DNA of 43,532 nucleotides from Alphaproteobacteria bacterium (lineage in GTDB: Bacteria > Pseudomonadota > Alphaproteobacteria > Reyranellales > Reyranellaceae): contig JAFAZJ010000269.1 in assembly GCA_019239835.1 (NCBI GenBank), positions 1 through 43,532 of the forward strand, given 5' to 3'. Below, piece after piece: positions 8,573 through 35,431 of this stretch; within the stretch, counting starts at the first letter, position 1; the number at the start of each line of letters is the position of its first letter. A program made the translations under genes and the position numbers. The notes under the pieces were generated by a model. That model did no database searches. It had not been told where the DNA came from and worked only from the letters and a program-made list of their open reading frames with translations.

Positions 8573-8938
8573 TCAGCCCGCAGGCGTCACCGCGACGACA
8601 CGAAACGGCCGCTCAATGCCATCGTGCTCGGTGATCGATACGTATTCGCCGACCTTGAATCGATGGCTGTCGAAGCGAAAGATCGGCTCGTCATCGTCCT
8701 CGCCCGGCTTGTACGAGAACATCCAGCCGGAGCGGCGATGAACCAGGCCACCGAGTTCATCCTTCTCGCCCTGCCAGAAGCGACGCACGGTGCAAAGGGC
8801 CTTGTCCCGCTGCCAACGATCGATGTCGAGCAGGCCAAGCCTCGTCAGCGGCGCATTGAACTCGTAGCCGCAACCGGCGGAACCCTCGGGAAAGTCCGCA
8901 GTACGGGCAAGCTCAAGGCGGATCTTCTTCAGTGACAT
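8573..8938 (-). CDS. conserved unknown protein (121 aa), FixK-box controlled
   Basis: The protein begins MSLKKIRLELAR, and GGGAG stands eight bases before ATG 8938; an in-frame upstream start at 8965 has weaker support. It has no membrane segment. Its middle part, FWQGEKDELGGLVHRRSGW, and end, HRFKVGEYVSITEHDG, suggest a small beta-rich fold, but I recognise no family. The tail GIERPFRVVAV reads like the last strand of such a barrel. An exact FixK box (9001-9014) lies 69 bp upstream, shared with the divergent ElaB-like operon. It converges on the acyl-CoA synthetase gene with a 7-bp gap and no terminator in between. Confidence 0.75.
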   Translation of the reverse strand: MSLKKIRLELARTADFPEGSAGCGYEFNAPLTRLGLLDIDRWQRDKALCTVRRFWQGEKDELGGLVHRRSGWMFSYKPGEDDDEPIFRFDSHRFKVGEYVSITEHDGIERPFRVVAVTPAG

Positions 8939-9000
8939 GGATGGTACTCCCGCAAGTCGATGCATATAGCGATCGATAGGGCTTCCCTGTTCGTGGCGCG

Positions 9001-9014
9001 TTGATCCGCATCAA
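9001..9014. promoter_or_regulatory. FixK/FNR box shared by divergent genes
   Basis: TTGA-TCCGCA-TCAA is an exact match, identical to the site at 20677-20690. The centre is 69 bp from the minus-strand start (8938) and 58 bp from the plus-strand start (9066). Confidence 0.82.
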
Positions 9015-9065
9015 GGCGACTGGCGGGTAACGCTGCCAGCCTGCAGGTACAGACCGGAGAGCGCC

Positions 9066-9326
9066 ATGACACCCGCTGCACCCGACGAAAAGACCAGTTC
9101 GACCGACTCCAGGCCGGAGCTTGAGATGATGCGCGAGAGGCTCCGCCAATTGCTGGGGGATGCTCGGCCGCTGCTTGCACAGCTAGAGGAAGCTGTCGGC
9201 GAAGCTCATTCCGCGTCCGTGACAGCGCGAAACAGGCTTGAGGCCGAGGTTCGCCAACGCCCCCTCACGGCGCTGCTCGTCGCCGCCGGGATCGGCTACC
9301 TGATCGCATCGCTGCGGCGGCGCTGA
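9066..9326 (+). CDS. ElaB/YqjD/DUF883-like membrane-anchored protein
   Basis: An 86-residue protein. A charged helical segment (about 17-65, with RPELEMMRERLRQLLGDAR) likely forms a coiled coil. It ends in one membrane helix at about 67-82 with a glycine zipper (LLVAAGIGYLIAS) and the basic tail LRRR. This is the layout of ElaB/YqjD proteins, which anchor ribosomes to the inner membrane in stationary-phase E. coli. The similarity is in architecture; a clear sequence family cannot be proven by eye. The start ATG 9066 has GGAGAG upstream. It is the first gene of a FixK-box unit continuing with the holin-like and alcohol dehydrogenase genes. Confidence 0.75.
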   Translation: MTPAAPDEKTSSTDSRPELEMMRERLRQLLGDARPLLAQLEEAVGEAHSASVTARNRLEAEVRQRPLTALLVAAGIGYLIASLRRR

Positions 9327-9329
9327 GCC

Positions 9330-9593
9330 ATGATGATGATCCCGTTGCTTCGGGCAGCCTTCGATGTGGGCGCATCGACCATCGCGGACGCTGGTCGGCG
9401 GGCGGCAACCCATGCCGTCACCATGCTGCTGGCGCTGGCGATGTTCCTTGCCAGCCTGGGCTTCCTGACCTTTGCCGGCTATCGCGCCCTGGCCGGTGGT
9501 CTCGGCGACATCCACGCCGCCCTGATCTTCGCGGCCGCCTATCTGATCATGGCCCTCTGCATATTGCTCGCGCTGCAGCGCAAGAGCCGATGA
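9330..9593 (+). CDS. small two-helix membrane protein (YqjE / phage-holin-III-like)
   Basis: An 87-residue protein with two hydrophobic helices, at about 29-52 and 61-82, joined by a short loop (GGLGDIHAA). Small membrane proteins of this type follow ElaB/YqjD-like genes in many proteobacteria and are annotated as YqjE or holin-superfamily-III proteins. The gene starts with three Met codons (ATGATGATG) three bases after the upstream stop and has no clear ribosome site, so it probably depends on translational coupling. It is followed 10 bp later by the alcohol dehydrogenase. There are no lysis genes here, so a phage role is unlikely. Confidence 0.7.
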   Translation: MMMIPLLRAAFDVGASTIADAGRRAATHAVTMLLALAMFLASLGFLTFAGYRALAGGLGDIHAALIFAAAYLIMALCILLALQRKSR

Positions 9594-9603
9594 GGACGCC
9601 ATC

Positions 9604-10677
9604 ATGCCCCTGATGAAAGCCGCCGTATTCGTTGAACCCGGCCGTATCGTCATCGACGACAAACCCGTTCCGGATGTCGGCCCGCTCGATGCTCTGGTTC
9701 GCATCACCACGACCACTATCTGCGGCACGGATGTGCACATACTGCGCGGCGAATATCCGGTGAAGCGCGGTCTGACCGTCGGCCACGAGCCAGTCGGCGT
9801 GATCGAGAAGCTCGGCTCGGCAGTTAGCGGTTACCGCGAAGGCCAGCGCGTCATTGCCGGTGCCATCACGCCCAGCGGGCACAGCACTGCGTGCCTTTGC
9901 GGCCAGCACTCGCAGGACGGTGCCGGCACCCCGCACGGGTACAAACCGCTCGGCGGTTGGCGCTTCGGCAATACCATCGACGGTTGCCAGGCCGAGTACG
10001 TGCTGGTGCCTGATGCGATGGCGAATCTTTCACCGGTGCCGGATACGCTATTGGACGAGCAGGTGCTGATGTGCCCGGACATCATGTCGACCGGCTTCGC
10101 CGGCGCCGAGAGCGGCGGCGTGAAAATCGGCGACACAGTCGCGGTTTTCGCCCAGGGACCGATTGGCCTGTGCGCGTCGGTGGGCGCGCGCCTCATGGGC
10201 GCGACGACGATCATCGGCATCGATACCGTTGGCGAGCGAATGTCCATGGCCCGCGCGCTGGGTGTCGATCACGTCATCGACTTCAAGCGCGACGATCCCG
10301 TCACCGCGATCCGCACGCTGACCGGCGGCCGCGGCGTCGATGTGGCGATCGAGGCGCTGGGAACGCAGTCGACCTTCGAGAGCGCGTTGCGCGTGCTGCG
10401 GCCCGGCGGCACCCTGTCGAGCCTCGGCGTCTATTCGTCCGACCTGCGCATCCCGCTGGATGCCTTCATGGCCGGGCTCGGCGACCACCGGATCGTCACG
10501 TCGCTCTGCCCCGGCGGCAAGGAGCGTATGCGGCGCCTGATGAATGTCATCGCCGGCGGTCGCGCGGATCTCACCCGCCTGGTGACCCACCGCTTCCGCC
10601 TCGAGCAGATCGAGCAGGCCTACGAGCTGTTCGCGCACCAGCGCGACGGCGTGCTGAAGGTGGCGATAACGCCCTGA
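9604..10677 (+). CDS. zinc-dependent alcohol dehydrogenase (secondary-alcohol type, no structural zinc)
   Basis: A 357-residue medium-chain dehydrogenase. The catalytic zinc ligands are C40 (ICGTD), H61-E62 (GHEPVG) and the Asp in MCPDIMSTGF. The Rossmann fold follows with AQGPIGLCASVGARLMGA and the cofactor-binding IDTVGER. The four-cysteine structural-zinc lobe is absent; in its place is GHSTACLCGQHSQDG. This pattern and the CPD ligand resemble the Clostridium beijerinckii / Thermoanaerobacter secondary alcohol dehydrogenases. A role in re-oxidising NAD(P)H when oxygen is short would fit, since it is the third gene of a FixK-box operon. fixL begins 48 bp downstream and could receive read-through. 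The substrate cannot be told from sequence. Confidence 0.9.
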   Translation: MPLMKAAVFVEPGRIVIDDKPVPDVGPLDALVRITTTTICGTDVHILRGEYPVKRGLTVGHEPVGVIEKLGSAVSGYREGQRVIAGAITPSGHSTACLCGQHSQDGAGTPHGYKPLGGWRFGNTIDGCQAEYVLVPDAMANLSPVPDTLLDEQVLMCPDIMSTGFAGAESGGVKIGDTVAVFAQGPIGLCASVGARLMGATTIIGIDTVGERMSMARALGVDHVIDFKRDDPVTAIRTLTGGRGVDVAIEALGTQSTFESALRVLRPGGTLSSLGVYSSDLRIPLDAFMAGLGDHRIVTSLCPGGKERMRRLMNVIAGGRADLTRLVTHRFRLEQIEQAYELFAHQRDGVLKVAITP

Positions 10678-10725: not shown

Positions 10726-11886
10726 ATGTCCGATACTCTCCCTATCGAAGTGGCATTGCAGGCAGCGGAAGCGCGCCTGCGTTCGATCCTGCAGACCGTG
10801 CCCGATGCCATGATCATCATCGACGAGCGCGGCCGCATCGAATCGCTCAGCACGACCGCCGAACGCCTGTTCGGTTATTCCATGGGCGAGGTAGCCGGCA
10901 AGAACATCAAGATGTTCATGCCCACGCCACACCGCGAACAGCATGACGGATATCTCAAGCGTTACCTTCAGACCGGCGAGCGACACATCATCGGCATCGG
11001 CCGCATCGTCACCGGCCAGCGCAAGGATGGCACGACCTTTCCGATGCACCTGACCATCGGTGAGCTGCGCTCGGCCGACAAGCACTACTTCACCGGCTTC
11101 ATCCGCGATCTCACCGACCAGCAGCTCACCGAGAGCCGGCTGAAAGAGCTGCAGTCGGAAGTCACGCACATGTCGCGCTTCACCGCACTGGGCGAGATGG
11201 CCTCGACGCTCGCGCACGAGATCAACCAGCCGCTGACGGCGATCAACAATTACCTGCGCGGCTGCAACCGGCTGCTGGAGCGTATCGACGATCCCGCGGC
11301 GCCGATGCTGCGCGACGCCATCGGCAAGGCCGCCGACCAGGCGCTGCGCGCCGGAGACATCATCCGCCGCCTGCGCGAGTTCGTCGCCCGCGGCGACAGC
11401 GAGCGGCGCATCGAGAGCCTGCCCAAGCTGATCGAGGACGCCAGCACACTGGCGCTGATCGGCGCCAAGGAGAACGGCATCGCCGTCGCCTTCCGCCTCG
11501 ACCCCGCCGTCGACCTGGTGATCGCCGACCGCATCCAGATCCAGCAGGTGCTGGTCAATCTCATTCGCAATGCCGTCGAGGTGATGGCCGAGGTCAACGG
11601 CGTGCGCGAGCTCGACATCGAGACGCGGGCGGTCTCCGACGAGACGGTCCAGGTCAGCGTCGCCGATACCGGCGGCGGGCTGTCGCCCGAGGTGGCGCGG
11701 CATCTTTTCCAGCCTTTCGTCACCACCAAGCAGAAGGGCATGGGCCTGGGCCTGTCGATCTGTCGGACCATCGTCGAGGCGCATGGCGGTAAGATCTGGG
11801 TTGACGCGCGGCCGCAGGGCGGGACGATTTTCCGCTTCACCTTGCGCGCGGCAGATCATCACGAGGAGGAAACGCTTGTCGGCTAG
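10726..11886 (+). CDS. fixL: FixL, soluble haem-PAS oxygen-sensor histidine kinase
   Basis: A 386-residue kinase with a single PAS domain (about 13-130) and no membrane helix. The haem pocket is a close match to Bradyrhizobium FixL: H73 in REQHDGYL is the proximal ligand. R79, H87 and R93 (KRYLQTGERHIIGIGR) sit at the spacing of Bradyrhizobium R206, H214 and R220, where R220 relays oxygen binding. The kinase part has H164 in AHEINQPLTAINNY, the N-box VNLIRNAVE, and ATP lids DTGGGLS and GMGLGLSI. Deoxy-FixL should autophosphorylate and pass phosphate to FixJ, whose start overlaps this gene by 11 bases. Transcription may come from the alcohol dehydrogenase operon or from a promoter in the 48-bp gap. 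This is a confident call. Confidence 0.95.
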   Translation: MSDTLPIEVALQAAEARLRSILQTVPDAMIIIDERGRIESLSTTAERLFGYSMGEVAGKNIKMFMPTPHREQHDGYLKRYLQTGERHIIGIGRIVTGQRKDGTTFPMHLTIGELRSADKHYFTGFIRDLTDQQLTESRLKELQSEVTHMSRFTALGEMASTLAHEINQPLTAINNYLRGCNRLLERIDDPAAPMLRDAIGKAADQALRAGDIIRRLREFVARGDSERRIESLPKLIEDASTLALIGAKENGIAVAFRLDPAVDLVIADRIQIQQVLVNLIRNAVEVMAEVNGVRELDIETRAVSDETVQVSVADTGGGLSPEVARHLFQPFVTTKQKGMGLGLSICRTIVEAHGGKIWVDARPQGGTIFRFTLRAADHHEEETLVG

Positions 11887-12490
11887 TCAGGTGGTGCACG
11901 TCATCGACGACGATATCGACGTGCGGCAGTCCCTGGCGTTCCTGCTGAGCACGGCGGGCCTGCCGGTGCGCGTGCACGACTCGGCCGTGGCATTTCTCGA
12001 GGCGTTGCCGGCTGCCGACGACGGCTGCATCGTCACTGATGTGCGCATGCCCGAAATCGACGGCCTGGAGCTGCAGCGTCGGCTGCGCGCGCAGGGCAAT
12101 TCCATGCCCGTCGTGGTGATGACCGGCCATGGCGACGTGGCCCTGGCGGTCGAGGCCATGAAGGCAGGCGCCGTCGACTTCATCGAGAAGCCGTTCGACG
12201 ACGAGGTTCTGCTGGCCGCCATCCGGACCGCGCTCGCCCAGCGCAACAGCACCCGCGAGCGTGGCTCGCAGCTCGACGAGATCCGGGCCCGCATGAAGCT
12301 CCTGTCGGAACGCGAGCGGCAGGTGCTCGACGGCCTAGTTGCGGGGAAGCCCAACAAGATCATTGCCTACGAGCTCGGCATCAGCGCCCGGACGGTCGAG
12401 ATCTACCGCGCCAACGTCATGACCAAGATGCAGGCCGACAGCCTTTCGCATCTCGTCCGCATGGCCCTGCTCGTGACCGCCGCGGGCTAG
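11876..12490 (+). CDS. fixJ: FixJ, LuxR-type response regulator of FixL
   Basis: A 204-residue protein, almost the usual FixJ length. The receiver domain (about 5-120) has the acidic triad D11-D12-D13, phospho-acceptor D55 in VTDVRMPEIDG, the T in MTGHGD, and the lysine in IEKPF. The LuxR-type helix-turn-helix (about 140-200) has LLSERERQVLDGLVAGKPNK and ISARTVEIYRANVM. I place the start at TTG 11876, with AGGAGG six bases upstream, instead of at in-frame starts further upstream that lie inside fixL. It should activate fixK when FixL is oxygen-free; a matching site lies at 12967-12982. Confidence 0.95.
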   Translation: MSASQVVHVIDDDIDVRQSLAFLLSTAGLPVRVHDSAVAFLEALPAADDGCIVTDVRMPEIDGLELQRRLRAQGNSMPVVVMTGHGDVALAVEAMKAGAVDFIEKPFDDEVLLAAIRTALAQRNSTRERGSQLDEIRARMKLLSERERQVLDGLVAGKPNKIIAYELGISARTVEIYRANVMTKMQADSLSHLVRMALLVTAAG

Positions 12491-13057: not shown

Positions 13058-13744
13058 ATGCAGACGATCACCGCCGCCACCGCCCGCCAGTTCAACCCGG
13101 CTGCCGTGATGATGCGCGGTACCGCCACCATGCCGCGCCGGCCGACCGCCGAGGATGGCGTGCGGCGCAATTTCTCCAAGGGTGAGGAGCTGTATGCCGA
13201 GGGAGACGCGGCGGAATTCTTCTACAAGGTGGTCTCCGGCACGGTGCGTATCTGCAAGGTGCTGAACGACGGCCGCCGCCAGATCGAGGCCTTTCACCTC
13301 GCCGGCGACCTCTTCGGCCTGGAGCACGGCAGCGAGCATCGCTTCGCGGCTGAGGCGGTCGATGACCTGGTCGTCGTCGTCTACCGCGGCCGTCACCTCG
13401 AAGGCCTGGTGCGCGACAACCCCGATCTCGGCGGGCAGCTGATGAGCTCGGTGCTGGCCAGCCTCGACCGCGCGCGCGACCACATGGTGCTGCTGGGCCG
13501 CAAGTCAGCGCGCGAGAAGATCGCCAGCTTCCTGCTCGACATCGCCGCGCGCCTGGCCGACGGCGATCGCTTCGATCTGCCGATGCAGCGTGCCGATATC
13601 GCCGACCATCTCGGGCTGACCATCGAGACGGTATCGCGCACCCTGACCCAGATGGCGCGCGACGGCTTGATCAAGCTTGCCGCCTGCGGGCGGACCGTCG
13701 TGCTCAACAATCGCGACCAGCTGGAAGCACTCGAAGCCGCCTGA
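13058..13744 (+). CDS. fixK: FixK-type CRP/FNR transcription regulator
   Basis: A 228-residue CRP/FNR protein. The cyclic-nucleotide-like beta-barrel (about 35-130) is followed by a long dimer helix and a helix-turn-helix with RADIADHLGLTIETVSRTL. The E-T-V-S-R recognition core is that of FNR/FixK proteins reading TTGA-N6-TCAA, exactly the box repeated through this island. The N-terminal Cys cluster that holds the FNR iron-sulfur cluster is absent, so it should not sense oxygen itself and instead act downstream of FixLJ. The start ATG 13058 has AGGGGA upstream. A FixJ-like site lies in the gap in front. No exact FixK box was seen before it. It could be called fixK2-like; the family is certain, the exact orthology is not. 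Confidence 0.93.
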   Translation: MQTITAATARQFNPAAVMMRGTATMPRRPTAEDGVRRNFSKGEELYAEGDAAEFFYKVVSGTVRICKVLNDGRRQIEAFHLAGDLFGLEHGSEHRFAAEAVDDLVVVVYRGRHLEGLVRDNPDLGGQLMSSVLASLDRARDHMVLLGRKSAREKIASFLLDIAARLADGDRFDLPMQRADIADHLGLTIETVSRTLTQMARDGLIKLAACGRTVVLNNRDQLEALEAA

Positions 13745-18837: not shown

Positions 18838-18851
18838 TTGATCCTGCTCAA
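18838..18851 (+). promoter_or_regulatory. FixK/FNR box before the second tandem stress protein
   Basis: TTGA-TCCTGC-TCAA is an exact match. The centre is 63 bp upstream of ATG 18908, in the 109-bp gap after the oxidoreductase gene. Confidence 0.8.
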
Positions 18852-18907
18852 GGCGAGTCCTGCCGCATTGCTGCAGGCTTGAAACGTTGAACGGATCGGG
18901 TTTGCCT

Positions 18908-19717
18908 ATGTCTTTGCGGACACTGCTAGTGCACGGAGGTGTCGACGATCGCTTGGTGTCGCGCACCGACTTCGCGACCAAGTTGGCGCGCACTCACGGC
19001 GCCAGGGTCATCATTCTTTGCCCGCTCAAGGGCGACGCTGGAGCTTGTCTTCACGCCGAACACGCGCGTGCATCGGCTGTGGCTCACCACGTCAGGGCAG
19101 AGCGGCTGCGCGCCGCGCGCATAGGCACGCGACTTGCAAGGCAGATGACGCGCCAAGGCATTCGCGCCGACTGGATTGCCACGGAAGGACCGGTCCACGA
19201 GGTGCTCGCGAGCCGCAGCGCCATTGCTGACCTTGTCATCGTGAGTTGGAGCGAGGCCGCATGGGTTTCGCCACAGGCCTCAAGTGTTGTCGTCGCGGCA
19301 GGTCGCCCCGTTCTGGTTGTGCCGGCCGGCAATTCGTTCGCCTCCTGTGCCCAACGCGTGCTTGTGGCATGGAATGCCAGCCGCGAAGCGGCCCGCGCGA
19401 TGCAGGATGCGCTGCCCTTTCTCCAGCGGGCAGAGCAGGTCATTTTGCTTTCGGCCGGCGATGACGCAGGCGTCGCTAGCAGCGTGTCCGATGCTGTCGC
19501 CTATCTGGAAGCGCACGACGTAACAGCCCGCCCCGACCACCGAGCGATGCACGGTCACGACGCTGGCCAAGCGATCTTGCGCGCCGCCCGATGCCACAGA
19601 GCTGACATGATCGTCATGGGCGCCTTCGGGCACAGCCGCCTGCACGAGTGGACGTTCGGGGGCGCGACGCGCACCGTGCTTCAGTCGGTGACCGTACCTA
19701 CCCTTCTGTCGCGCTGA
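18908..19717 (+). CDS. universal stress protein, tandem-domain type
   Basis: A 269-residue two-domain USP, the same architecture as the protein at 3794. The N-terminal copy starts LRTLLVHGGVDD and is degenerate. The C-terminal copy starts RVLVAWNASREAARA and ends with GAFGHSRLHEWTFGGATRT. ATG 18908 is chosen over an in-frame TTG at 18887 because it starts directly at the first beta strand and fits the box spacing. The gene has its own FixK box, and the ABC-type membrane gene begins one base after its stop, so the two form a unit. The presence of two tandem USPs and one single USP within 18 kb points to a dormancy-type regulon. Confidence 0.9.
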   Translation: MSLRTLLVHGGVDDRLVSRTDFATKLARTHGARVIILCPLKGDAGACLHAEHARASAVAHHVRAERLRAARIGTRLARQMTRQGIRADWIATEGPVHEVLASRSAIADLVIVSWSEAAWVSPQASSVVVAAGRPVLVVPAGNSFASCAQRVLVAWNASREAARAMQDALPFLQRAEQVILLSAGDDAGVASSVSDAVAYLEAHDVTARPDHRAMHGHDAGQAILRAARCHRADMIVMGAFGHSRLHEWTFGGATRTVLQSVTVPTLLSR

Positions 19718-19718
19718 G

Positions 19719-20714
19719 ATGCCTGCAACGGTCATGCGCGTAGCGCTGCCACGCACCATCGCCGGCTATGCCCTGCGCTCGAGCGGGTTTCATCAGCTAG
19801 TGCTTGCGATCCTCTCCGTCATGGTCTTTGGCATCAGCGCCGTCCCGCTGGAGCTGCAGCGGCGAATCATCAACGACGCCATCAATTCCGGGACTGCAAA
19901 TCTCATCATCTGGCTCGCAGCGGCCTATGCTGGCGTCGCTGTGTTGCAGAACGTACTGAAGCTCGGCCTCAACGTGTACCGGGGTTGGGTCAGCGAACGC
20001 GCAGTACGCCGCCTGCGCCAGCGAATTGTCGCGCACGCAACGGCCGCAGGAACCGGTCAGCTTCATTCAGCCGAACAAGCCGGTGTCGAGATCGCCATGG
20101 TGTTGTCGGAGGCGGAGCCAATCGGTCAGTTTGTGGGCATCAGCCTGTCTGAACCGCTGCTTCAGGGTGGCGTATTGCTGAGCGTGATCGGCTATATGAC
20201 CTGGCTGGAGCCGTGGATGGGAGCGCTCAGCATCGCTTTCCTCCTGCCGCAGCTTCTCTTCGTCCCGCCTCTGCAGGCCATGATCAATCGCCGGGCGGAG
20301 CGACGCATCGGTGTCCTGCGAACTGTAGGCGCCGACATGCTCCGCACGCAGCACGAGCCCGGTATGCGCAATCCTGCGGTCGATCAAGTGTTTGCGCTCA
20401 ACATGGGCATCTTCAAAATCAAGTACACGCAGAACTTCCTGATGAACGTCACCTACCATTGCGCGGTCGCGGTGGCCCTGGGAGTCGGCGGGTACCTCGC
20501 TGTCAACGGTCGCATCGAGATCGGTGCGGTCGTCGCGACCGTCGCCGGCCTCGGGCGCCTGAATGATCCCTGGGGTGACCTGGTGACCTGGTGGCGTGAA
20601 ATGGCTGTGGTCAGGATGAAGTACCGCCTGTTCGTGCAGGCGGTCGACCAGCTTGAGGGCAGTGGAGACCAGGATTTTGATCCGCATCAATGCCCGGCTG
20701 CACTCGATCGCTAA
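19719..20714 (+). CDS. ABC-exporter-type membrane domain without ATPase domain
   Basis: A 331-residue protein with the six-helix layout of type I ABC exporters: helices at about 24-45, 59-80, 140-185 (two), 240-260 and 268-290. The intracellular loop region contains RLRQRIVAHATAAGT, the usual coupling-helix zone. It stops after the membrane part (MKYRLFVQAVDQLEG), where a nucleotide-binding domain would normally begin. No Walker A or ABC signature occurs here, and no ATPase gene lies nearby. An exact FixK box for the next gene lies inside its last 15 codons. Such half-transporters without ATPase are unusual. It may be a truncated exporter, a partner for an ATPase elsewhere, or a membrane protein with a new role. 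The start is ATG 19719; ATG 19734 is possible. Confidence 0.8.
   Translation: MPATVMRVALPRTIAGYALRSSGFHQLVLAILSVMVFGISAVPLELQRRIINDAINSGTANLIIWLAAAYAGVAVLQNVLKLGLNVYRGWVSERAVRRLRQRIVAHATAAGTGQLHSAEQAGVEIAMVLSEAEPIGQFVGISLSEPLLQGGVLLSVIGYMTWLEPWMGALSIAFLLPQLLFVPPLQAMINRRAERRIGVLRTVGADMLRTQHEPGMRNPAVDQVFALNMGIFKIKYTQNFLMNVTYHCAVAVALGVGGYLAVNGRIEIGAVVATVAGLGRLNDPWGDLVTWWREMAVVRMKYRLFVQAVDQLEGSGDQDFDPHQCPAALDR
20677..20690 (+). promoter_or_regulatory. FixK/FNR box inside the end of the ABC-like gene
   Basis: TTGA-TCCGCA-TCAA is an exact match and identical to the site at 9001. The centre is 64 bp upstream of ATG 20748, so it belongs to the phasin/stress-protein unit although it lies within the preceding coding sequence. 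Confidence 0.8.
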
Positions 20715-20747
20715 GATGAAACCCGCGATCAACAGTGGTGGAATGTC

Positions 20748-21077
20748 ATGGAACTAGACGATACGGTCGCCACGCCGTCAGCGGACGCCGCAGTCAAGGT
20801 CGGAGATTTCTGGCATGGCCAGGACAAGATCCTGGATTGCATGCAGGTCTTCGTCCGTGGCTGGTTCGAGCGGCGGCATGTCGGCACCCAGGCCGCGCTG
20901 GAGACCGCGCAGCGCATGTGCATGGCCAAGACGCCGATCGACGTGGCTCGAGAACTCCAGGAATGGGCCGCCGGGTCCTTGCAGCGGATCGCGCAGGATG
21001 GCGTCGCATTGCAGCGGGAGGCCATGGACATCGGCGAAGCCATGATCGACGCGTCCCGCTACCAAGTCCCCACCTGA
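20748..21077 (+). CDS. phasin-family protein
   Basis: A 109-residue, mostly helical protein without membrane segments. The stretch RRHVGTQAALETAQRMCM and the following AKTPIDVARELQEWAAGS match the Phasin_2 pattern, with a (V/I)-x-x-Q-x-E-x-W-like helix and amphipathic repeats. Phasins coat polyhydroxyalkanoate granules, and storage of reducing power as PHB is common at low oxygen. No polymerase or depolymerase gene lies nearby. The ribosome site is GGTGG before ATG 20748. A FixK box lies 64 bp upstream, and a single-domain stress protein follows 8 bp after the stop. The family call is likely but rests on composition and short motifs. Confidence 0.72.
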   Translation: MELDDTVATPSADAAVKVGDFWHGQDKILDCMQVFVRGWFERRHVGTQAALETAQRMCMAKTPIDVARELQEWAAGSLQRIAQDGVALQREAMDIGEAMIDASRYQVPT

Positions 21078-21085
21078 GGCCGGCG

Positions 21086-21517
21086 ATGACAGAAAGCGCC
21101 TCATTCCTCGTGGCGGTCGACGGTTTGCTCCCCTCAGACCGCGCGACGTCCTACGCCGCCGGTCTCGCCAAGGCTACTCCCGGCGCCGTGGTTCACCTGC
21201 TCAACGTGCAGCCCTCGGTCGGCAGCCTCGTCACGACATTCATTTCCAAAGGCGATGTCGGTTCGTACCATCGGGAGGAAGGCGAGAAGGCCCTCGCTTC
21301 TGCGGTCAAGGTCTGCGCGGACGCCGGTGTGGCCTGCAAGAAGCATGTCGGAGTGGGACGTCCAGGCGAGGTCATCGGTCGCTTCGCCCGGAAACTCGAG
21401 GTTCGTGCGGTGATCAGCGGCACTCGCGGCCACGGAGGAGTAGTTGGCGTGCTGCTGGGTTCCGTGGCGCAGGACATCCTCGCGCATGTCGACGCGCCGG
21501 TCACCTTTGTGAAGTAG
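21086..21517 (+). CDS. universal stress protein, single-domain ATP-binding type
   Basis: A 143-residue USP. It starts SFLVAVDGLLPSDRA, has LLNVQPSV at the second strand, and carries the complete nucleotide loop GTRGHGGVVGVLLGSVAQDI (G-x2-G-x9-G-S). This marks an ATP-binding UspFG-type protein, unlike the two tandem proteins in this window. ATG 21086 is chosen because it opens the first strand directly; the frame is open further upstream inside the phasin gene. It is the last gene of the FixK island and is followed by about 240 bp of apparently non-coding DNA and the terminase remnant. Confidence 0.9.
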   Translation: MTESASFLVAVDGLLPSDRATSYAAGLAKATPGAVVHLLNVQPSVGSLVTTFISKGDVGSYHREEGEKALASAVKVCADAGVACKKHVGVGRPGEVIGRFARKLEVRAVISGTRGHGGVVGVLLGSVAQDILAHVDAPVTFVK

Positions 21518-21657: not shown

Positions 21658-21770
21658 GCGAAGAGGGATTGCAAGGTGTGCCGCTCGCTATGAAGTCCGT
21701 GCTCTTGATCACGTACTGCCGCCACAACGCCGAAGATAAAGCCCAACCGTTCTTTACTAGGCGTAGCCAT
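21624..21770 (-). CDS. possible small protein after the terminase remnant (48 aa)
   Basis: An open frame beginning MATPSKERLGFIFGVVAAV and ending AVSFNL. It overlaps the last 14 bases of the terminase remnant in another frame, as small phage genes often do. It has no visible ribosome site and no recognised family. It may be a leftover of the same phage-derived segment or chance. Its stop lies in the loop of the inverted repeat at 21606-21636. Confidence 0.25.
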   Translation of the reverse strand: MATPSKERLGFIFGVVAAVRDQEHGLHSERHTLQSLFAIGLAAVSFNL

Positions 21771-22881
21771 AGCGATCAAACAAGGCTGTTGGCGGAGGTG
21801 GAGCAAAAGCGCGCTGCAGCGCTTGCGAGAACGCGTCAACCTGGTCGTCGTGTTTGCCTCTCGGAAAGGCCAATATCTCTGCTTTGAACTCGTCGAGCCA
21901 CTGCGCCTGCCGCGGCAGATAGACTGCCCCCGCTTCGATGGGTGCGGTCTGCGCTGCCATGCGCATGACCTTGTCGCCGTCTGGACTGACACCGATGGGG
22001 TGAATTCCTTGGCGCTGCAAATCCGGGATCAAGCTCTGCCCAGAGCCCTTCTTCTCGATGAGCAACGCCGGTGGGCCTGCTGCTGTGTTCCTCCAGCGCG
22101 AGTGGAGCTGCAACACAGCGCGCTTCAGTTCGGGATATTCCAACCGCGCGCGCACGACATCGAGGACGTAGATGGTTTCCTTGCGCACGAGCAGAACCAC
22201 GGCAACAGAATAGTCCGCTAGCTCACCGCTGCTCATTGCCGTATCCCAGCTGACGATTATCCTATCGCCGTACTGAGGCGCCGGCGGTTGATCATAAAAA
22301 TTGAACCACGACCAGTTTATGAGGTTGCCGCCGATCGGTACCGGCGCCTGCTGGTACTGAGCGACAAAGTCCATCGAACCCATTGCCGCCTTTAACGCGT
22401 CCAGTGCCGCCTTTGACTCCCGGGCCGGATGCAGTAGCTCGCCGACCAGACGCCGGTAGTGACGGTGGGGACCCAGATCGTGAATGGTCTCCTCTTCGGC
22501 TATGGCCGGCAGATTCAGATGGCGCCACCCGCCTTCCTCGAGCAGGTGGCCAACAAGGTCTTCGAGGTGCAGCCGCTGCATCACGACGATGATGGCGCCG
22601 TCTACCTTGCTGTCCAACCGCGACAAGAGTGTGTTGGCATACCACTGCTTGAGCGATTCCCGTGCCGCCTCGGACTGCGCATCCTGCGGCTTCAGGGGAT
22701 CGTCGATGATAATGAGGTCGCCGCCTCGGCCGGTCAGCGTGCCGCCGACCGAGGTCGCCAGCCGATAGCCTCTGCTGGTTGTCATCACCTCGCCTTCGGT
22801 GTCCTTTTCCGGGCTGATGCGAGTGCGCGGAAAGACGTGTCGATAAAGCGGCGAGCGCATCGATTCGTGGGGCGATTTCAA
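21757..22881 (-). pseudogene. phage terminase large-subunit remnant lacking the N-terminal ATPase part
   Basis: The 374 remaining residues match the second half of a TerL protein: PLYRHVFPRTRISPEKDTEG, the Walker B-like LIIIDDPLK, the motif QRLHLEDLVGHLL, and the RNase-H-type nuclease with SWDTAMSSGELADYS and HDDQVDAFSQAL. In intact proteins about 100 or more residues with the Walker A motif precede this. Here the frame upstream meets a TGA near 22964, and no P-loop is found. The only start is a TTG at 22881 without a good ribosome site. No portal, capsid, integrase or small terminase gene is nearby. It is best seen as a decayed prophage or gene-transfer fragment that closes the FixK island. 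Confidence 0.8.
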
Positions 22882-33599: not shown

Positions 33600-34591
<992 letters not shown>

Positions 34592-34595
<4 letters not shown>

Positions 34596-35431
34596 GCGGC
34601 GCGCTTCTCGACGTCGACAACGTAGTGCGGACCTATAGCGGCGGGCTGCTCACGCGCCGCCGCGTCACTGCCGTCGATGGCGTCAGCCTGCGCCTCGACG
34701 CTGCGCGCCCCGAGATCTTCACCATCGTCGGCGAGTCGGGCAGCGGCAAGACCACGCTGGCACGCATGATCCTCAACATGATCGCGCCGAGCGCCGGTAC
34801 GATCCGCTTCGACGGCACCGACCTGGCCACGATCCGCAGCAGCCGCGCGCGGCTCGCCTTCATGAAGCGGGTGCAGCCGATCTTCCAGAACCCATTCGAG
34901 TCCTTCAATCCGATGAAGCGACTCGATCGTTACCTCTTCGCCACTGGCCGGCGGATGGCGGGCTTGTCCGATACCACCGCGATCGCCGACGCGGCCGACA
35001 CGGCGTTGCGCAGCGTAGGCCTGTCGCTGGCCGAAATCCGCGGTCGGTATCCGCACGAATTATCGGGCGGCCAGCTGCAGCGCGTGGCGATCGCCCGGGC
35101 ACTGATCTCGAAGCCTGCCCTGCTGATCGCCGACGAGCCGGTATCGATGATCGATGCCTCGCTGCGCGCCTCGATCGTCAATCTGTTGCGCGATCTGCGC
35201 GACCGACTGAGCGTGTCGATCATCTACATTACCCACGACCTCGCCACGGCCTACTACATCAGCGACCGCATCATGATCATGCGGCACGGCAAGGCCGTCG
35301 AGGCCGGTGACGCGCGCACGGTGCTCGACGATCCGCAGCACCCCTATTCGCAATTGCTCAAGCAATCGGTTCTGTCGCCCGACCCGCAGCACCGGACGGT
35401 CGGTCGCCAAGGAGGTTCGTCCCATGCGTAA
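34592..35431 (+). CDS. ABC transporter ATP-binding protein (DppF/OppF family)
   Basis: A 279-residue ATPase: Walker [11 protein letters not shown]-loop [13 protein letters not shown], signature LSGGQLQRV, Walker [10 protein letters not shown] and H-loop THDLAT. It pairs with the preceding ATPase to energise the importer. It lacks the long Cys-rich C-terminal tail of the partner. Its final eight bases overlap the arabinofuranosidase start, and the AGGAGGT ribosome site of that gene is inside this coding region. This ties the enzyme to the transporter. Confidence 0.93.

Follow-up and report, generated by a model that had tools for sequence, protein, structure and literature searches.

The exporter fold of ABC transporters normally requires a nucleotide-binding domain (NBD), and the locus described here raises the question of what an exporter membrane domain can do when its gene ends before any NBD is encoded. 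The window, i.e. the full 43,532-nt stretch of DNA analysed, carries such a gene, whose product is a type IV ABC-exporter membrane domain. The family of these transmembrane domain (TMD)-only proteins is referred to below as T, and its NBD-bearing kin as F; both names were coined here.

The ABC_membrane domain (PF00664) was recognized in the T protein of the window with 35.4 bits (Pfam cut-off 28), and no NBD family was found in it by Pfam at E≤0.1. Its AF2 model, which is weak (mean pLDDT 62), contains six helices, with breaks (residues 14-57, 60-109, 144-163, 165-209, 219-262 and 268-314), while hydropathy analysis revealed five clear membrane peaks and a sixth segment under the threshold. 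The profile of family T matches Sav1866 over profile positions 47-292 (E 8e-17), and also aligns with TmrAB, MsbA and others. ABC exporters were the top Foldseek matches of the weak AF2 model (best E 2e-3, probability 1.00), and in the VIA comparison with exporters the Z score did not exceed 14.5 over ~260 residues, which is barely above the background of this tool for helical models. SbmA was absent among the 50 matches listed in each fold comparison, which is uninformative given the weakness of the model. No significant ABC-ATPase match is present between base 1 and base 33,600 of the window, and the nearest ABC ATPases form a tandem pair (~33,600-34,390 and ~34,580-35,400) located 13 kb downstream of the T gene. 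The first-pass annotation, which had described a six-helix exporter layout, a protein stopping ahead of the NBD and the lack of a nearby ATPase gene, is borne out on these three points.

Table 1. Features of the window that are relevant to the T gene.
Feature	Position	Strand	Remarks
PAS histidine kinase (FixL-like by sequence)	10726-11886	+	
LuxR-type response regulator (FixJ-like)	11783-12490	+	
CRP/FNR-type regulator (FixK-like)	13058-13744	+	
FixK-type box, one mismatch	18838-18851	+	motif scan; precedes the USP-T pair
Universal stress protein (USP) gene	18908-19717	+	PF00582; directly upstream of T; ORF listed from TTG 18887, ATG 18908 preferred
TMD-only ABC-exporter-fold gene (family T)	19719-20714	+	PF00664; ORF with ATG start, 331 aa
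Perfect FixK/FNR-type box	20677-20690	+	TTGATCCGCATCAA, TTGAT-N4-ATCAA; within the last T codons
-10-like TAAGAT (weak)	20712-20717	+	includes the T stop codon; one base off the class II expectation
Small protein gene	20748-21077	+	downstream of the perfect box; phasin-like by weak similarity alone
Second USP gene	21086-21517	+	PF00582, 1.1e-23; same direction
Phage terminase-type gene (RNase H-like domain)	21757-22881	-	PF17289; adjoins the USP operon; no further phage gene noticed beside it

The start codon of the T gene is separated by one base from the stop codon of the upstream USP gene, and the two genes are therefore probably co-translated. If the box preceding this pair has class II spacing, the predicted start site is at position 18886. 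The perfect box within the last T codons, which had already been annotated, was confirmed; its far end lies 24 bases from the last base of the T stop codon. The same annotation placed a phasin operon after this box. A gene does follow in the same direction, but its phasin label is weak: the product has no Pfam match at E≤1, and among the 12 listed of 13 plasmid records with partial matches, 11 are named 'hypothetical protein' and one 'phasin family protein'. The number of FixK-type sites with at most one mismatch in the window is 11, versus 0.49 expected, and three of the nine perfect sites of the 3.5-Mb assembly fall within these 43.5 kb.

The first scan for homologs of the T protein yielded four loci in Alpha- and Betaproteobacteria, with 44-68% identity in the alignment and all devoid of an NBD, and a fifth locus encoding an ordinary full-length exporter (23% identity). 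Wider sampling produced matches in 34 of 61 relatives and in 107 of 289 genomes of the class, both counts including full-length kin. Among the 61 distinct short members, 58 (57 relatives and the window protein) extend no more than 31 residues past the matched domain; in L057, L067 and L084, which group with F, this extension reaches up to 44 residues. The full-length relatives have 483-776 residues in this position (the lower values are minima, as the retrieved sequence ends there), and no row is of a length intermediate between these two classes. L042/L120 and L066 (stops inside the frame) were left out before alignment. The dN/dS ratio in 14 related T pairs ranges from 0.06 to 0.23. Judged from these sequences, T is an old, NBD-less family whose transmembrane part is under purifying selection. 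This agrees with the earlier view that the NBD-less end is stable and does not result from a recent break, given the common length in two classes; full-length exporters at the same place in relatives, which would have indicated recent truncation, were not what we found, as nearly all of the short rows end alike. The T gene can nevertheless be lost, as seen from the copies in pieces in several Rhizobium plasmids (H91-H98) and in one relative of the window (G024:C21).

It had further been suggested that the short end of the protein is fixed by the FixK box. A perfect box inside the T gene occurs, among 60 T loci, only in the window; sites with one mismatch are present inside the gene in two further loci, in one case at its very end. 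The exact 16-mer at the box was found only in the window's own locus, and in 6 of the 60 loci a box is present in the 500 bp preceding the T match. Since the other examined T genes have no perfect internal box, and relatives share the end point without it, the box was rejected as the cause of the short end. The box-carrying tail is also unconserved in the alignment, and the box is a local feature of the window genome, situated on a free tail.

To describe the genetic context of the family, 22 marker proteins drawn from T loci were scored in two T clades, A (39 loci) and B (21 loci), and in 19 F loci, the latter from genomes that also hold T (L166, in which no F was found, was left out). The clade A loci contain genes for USP (17), FixK (15), a FixJ-type regulator (15), a P-type ATPase (9) and HemN (8); in clade B only a single P-type ATPase was found among these five markers, and the F loci contain none of them. 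Homologs of the same length beside USP genes, the check proposed in the first-pass annotation, were thus obtained as regards length, with USP proximity confined to part of clade A. Many clade A loci come from one family, and the counts are not independent; after removal of the window and six reference-source loci, USP is present in 13, FixK in 11 and the P-type ATPase in 4 of the remaining 32, and 16 of these 32 have none of the three nearby. The density of boxes with at most one mismatch is 1.53 per 10 kb in clade A, 0.50 in clade B and 0.03 in the F loci. In seven loci (L099, L101-L105 and L108), receiver-type genes closely precede T, and the next gene after it encodes FixK. One T clade is therefore often found in a low-oxygen (FixLJ/FixK/USP) neighbourhood, in which F was never found among 19 loci.

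Other neighbours of T were also noted. In plasmid p3 of Azospirillum brasilense Sp 7 (L188 279-3978), the last 8 bases of a magnesium P-type ATPase gene also belong to T; T follows an mgtA-type gene without overlap in L006 and adjoins it in L098, while in L094 it adjoins another P-type ATPase gene. In Rhizobium, a CBS gene is located upstream of T. An SbmA_BacA-type (PF05992) open frame was observed ~4.6 kb from T in one genome (G005:C1:2799744-2800652) and ~15 kb from it in another (G008). ABC-ATPase matches occur within ~8 kb of T in 10 of 60 loci, in eight of these at a distance of at least 3.8 kb and in one at 2.3 kb; the sole adjacent case is L114, in which an ordinary 623-aa ABC exporter (8604-10475) is encoded directly after T.

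The closest NBD-bearing relatives of T, i.e. the F proteins, are encoded by open frames of ~880-1,130 aa. The F of the window genome (contig C241, L153 1306-4023, 905 aa) contains PF00664 followed by ABC_tran split by a long insert, and its Walker A region appears, by eye, to be degenerate. F proteins (L153, L139-L158) have ~540-775 aa past the membrane domain, and the insert contains repeats of segments similar to the region that follows the Q-loop; some of these proteins, as read by eye, end in a cyclic-nucleotide-like domain. The F loci often contain three glycosyltransferase genes and a gene for a cyclic-nucleotide-binding protein (e.g. L159, L187), and the glycosyltransferase neighbours suggest that F is a glycolipid or glycan exporter. 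In the unrooted tree, T and F are placed on the two sides of one branch (88/72, counting L057, L067 and L084 with T), and these three short members group with F at 99/100. Rooting on the Chloroflexota exporter L007 was dropped, as its branch is too long to be trusted.

A comparison of 58 T rows with 20 F rows (L057, L067 and L084 left out), in which loop positions were placed by alignment with Sav1866, revealed what the T proteins have lost and kept. The first intracellular loop with its coupling helix (ICL1/CH1) has a mean conservation of 0.23 in T, with none of 19 columns reaching 80%, versus 0.66 and 7 of 20 columns in F; its length varies from 13 to 32 residues in T and is constant (20) in F. 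For ICL2/CH2 the respective values are 0.29 (0 of 23 columns) and 0.58 (7 of 32), and this loop is ~9 residues shorter in T. The transmembrane blocks, by contrast, are conserved to a similar extent (0.58-0.67 in T, 0.58-0.70 in F), and a control subset of 40 T rows at an F-like mean identity (53% vs 52%) gave the same loop contrast. With both NBD-contacting loops degenerate and variable in length, the coupling helices are predicted to have been lost in T. Eight residues (K81, E93, R100, E131, R201, K235, G257 and P284) are invariant in both families, in counts that still include L057, L067 and L084. Others are conserved in T and either different (Q47, R48, Y70, Y159 and R293) or variable (E45, R49, Y87 and N190) in F; the conserved acidic residues of T are E45, E93 and E131.

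We also examined whether genomes that hold T carry F. In the order to which the window belongs (42 genomes), all 31 genomes with T also have F, 10 have only F and one has neither. Of the 27 T genomes in the class sample, 26 have F if a 584-aa frame in one of them, possibly a cut F, is included; the exception is G314, whose short row groups with F. For comparison, a match, of whatever kind, is present in 80 of the 262 other genomes of this sample. Nearly all members of the families that hold T carry F, so that kinship confounds the co-occurrence in Alphaproteobacteria and explains much of it. Within Burkholderiales, F was found in 3 of 200 genomes, one of which is the T genome around which the sample was drawn; a second Burkholderiales T genome also carries F. 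The Burkholderiales F form one clade (100/100), in which those of the two T genomes are sisters. T thus seems to have entered a Burkholderiales lineage already holding F, and the two genomes may represent a single event.

Among the functions considered for T, working without ATP is the most likely, followed by a role as partner or brake of F. Tentatively, and with somewhat less than even confidence, we favour the reading that T is an ancient family that has become an ATPase-free, probably gradient-driven transporter or flippase similar to SbmA/BacA. In this lineage, loss of the NBD would have been followed by that of the coupling helices, with the transmembrane part staying under purifying selection; the protein would act as a dimer, its substrate would be akin to the one handled by F, and it would be made while FixK is active. 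Several observations speak against this reading: the near-constant presence of F in T genomes, the clade A loci with no USP, FixK or P-type ATPase gene nearby, the lack of USP and FixK in clade B, the weak AF2 model and the weak sixth membrane segment. The co-occurrence of T and F fits equally well a complex of both, in which T would contribute its six helices to a T-F dimer and alter or block F, e.g. at low oxygen. This alternative is possible, but on balance we consider it unlikely. Almost every T genome also has F, both examined Burkholderiales T genomes carry F despite its rarity there, and the fully conserved membrane residues are common to the two families; however, the counts are affected by kinship and perhaps by a single transfer, as described above, and no T gene was seen adjacent to an F gene in the examined loci, F being situated in glycosyltransferase clusters. 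The decayed coupling helices also make an active, ATP-driven T-F heterodimer unlikely, although a blocking heterodimer is not affected in this way. That T is specifically a FixK-controlled motorless half-transporter, joining F dimers and stopping or redirecting F at low oxygen, seems doubtful.

If T did not transport, but served neighbours such as a P-type ATPase, a CBS protein or USPs as a membrane receptor, scaffold or accessory subunit, this would account for its position after, overlapping or beside P-type ATPase genes, for the upstream CBS gene in Rhizobium and for the frequency of P-type ATPase genes in clade A versus F loci. These neighbours, however, vary by lineage and are nearly absent in clade B, and the transmembrane core retains an exporter-like signature common with F, so that we regard such a role as improbable. 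The proposal in the first-pass annotation that T works with a separate ABC ATPase supplied in trans fits the normal requirement of the fold for an NBD, as well as the exporter gene following T in L114. Such a borrower should keep its NBD contacts, and the shortening and lack of conservation of both coupling-helix regions thus argue against it, as does the scarcity of ABC-ATPase genes near T; a local partner is unsupported in the window, and ATPase borrowing in general appears highly improbable. The chance that T is a pseudogene or arose by recent truncation of a full-length exporter is negligible. T is half an exporter and some Rhizobium copies are decaying, but the like length in two classes of Proteobacteria, the dN/dS values well under 1 and the lack of intermediates led us to reject this explanation for the family.

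T is common in rhizobia and their kin, and one of its clades is often tied to the low-oxygen regulon. In the open-access literature we found no recognisable report of a TMD-only family beside USP/FixK genes; the FixK-regulon table of PMC2908626 lists ABC transporter permeases. Public plasmid records name T members 'ABC transporter transmembrane domain-containing protein', which is a domain label of NCBI with no described family or function, and some members are mislabelled in the databases as 'ABC transporter ATP-binding protein'. If T pairs with F, it would represent a new way to control ABC exporters, by means of an NBD-less mimic subunit.

With regard to known systems, T resembles the type IV exporters (MsbA, Sav1866, TM287/288) in its six-helix PF00664 domain, which can be aligned over nearly the whole length, but differs from them in the lack of a fused or neighbouring NBD and of conservation in the NBD-contacting loops. 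Its likeness to F includes K81, E93, E131, R201, K235, GG257-258 and P284, as well as a nearly always common genome, while F differs in its large NBD region, conserved coupling loops and location outside FixK islands. SbmA/BacA is the described case of an ABC-exporter fold that has dispensed with its ATPase and is powered by a different energy source. Like it, T has an exporter fold without an NBD and appears to have lost the coupling helices, and for both, an origin in the membrane domain of an ABC exporter with an NBD is proposed. Membership of T in the SbmA_BacA family was rejected, as the window protein has no PF05992 match at E≤0.1; the sole match to this family in the window genome is located in contig C272. 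According to the proposal in PMC13316013, an ABC exporter resembling YddA gave rise to the SbmA-like (SLiPT) transporters by losing its NBD and coupling helices, whereas the kin of T are MsbA/Sav1866-type PF00664 domains and F. T also has no extra TM0, its helix 14-57 being TM1, preceded by 13 residues; SbmA/BacA possesses a glutamate ladder and proton coupling, while T has the three conserved acidic residues listed above; and the context is peptide uptake in the former and low oxygen in the latter. T is thus an undescribed branch of the exporter fold that lacks an NBD and is apparently separate from SbmA/BacA, and its loss of the NBD and coupling helices looks like a separate loss in another branch of the fold. 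If T does transport without ATP, primary transport has given way to secondary transport more than once.
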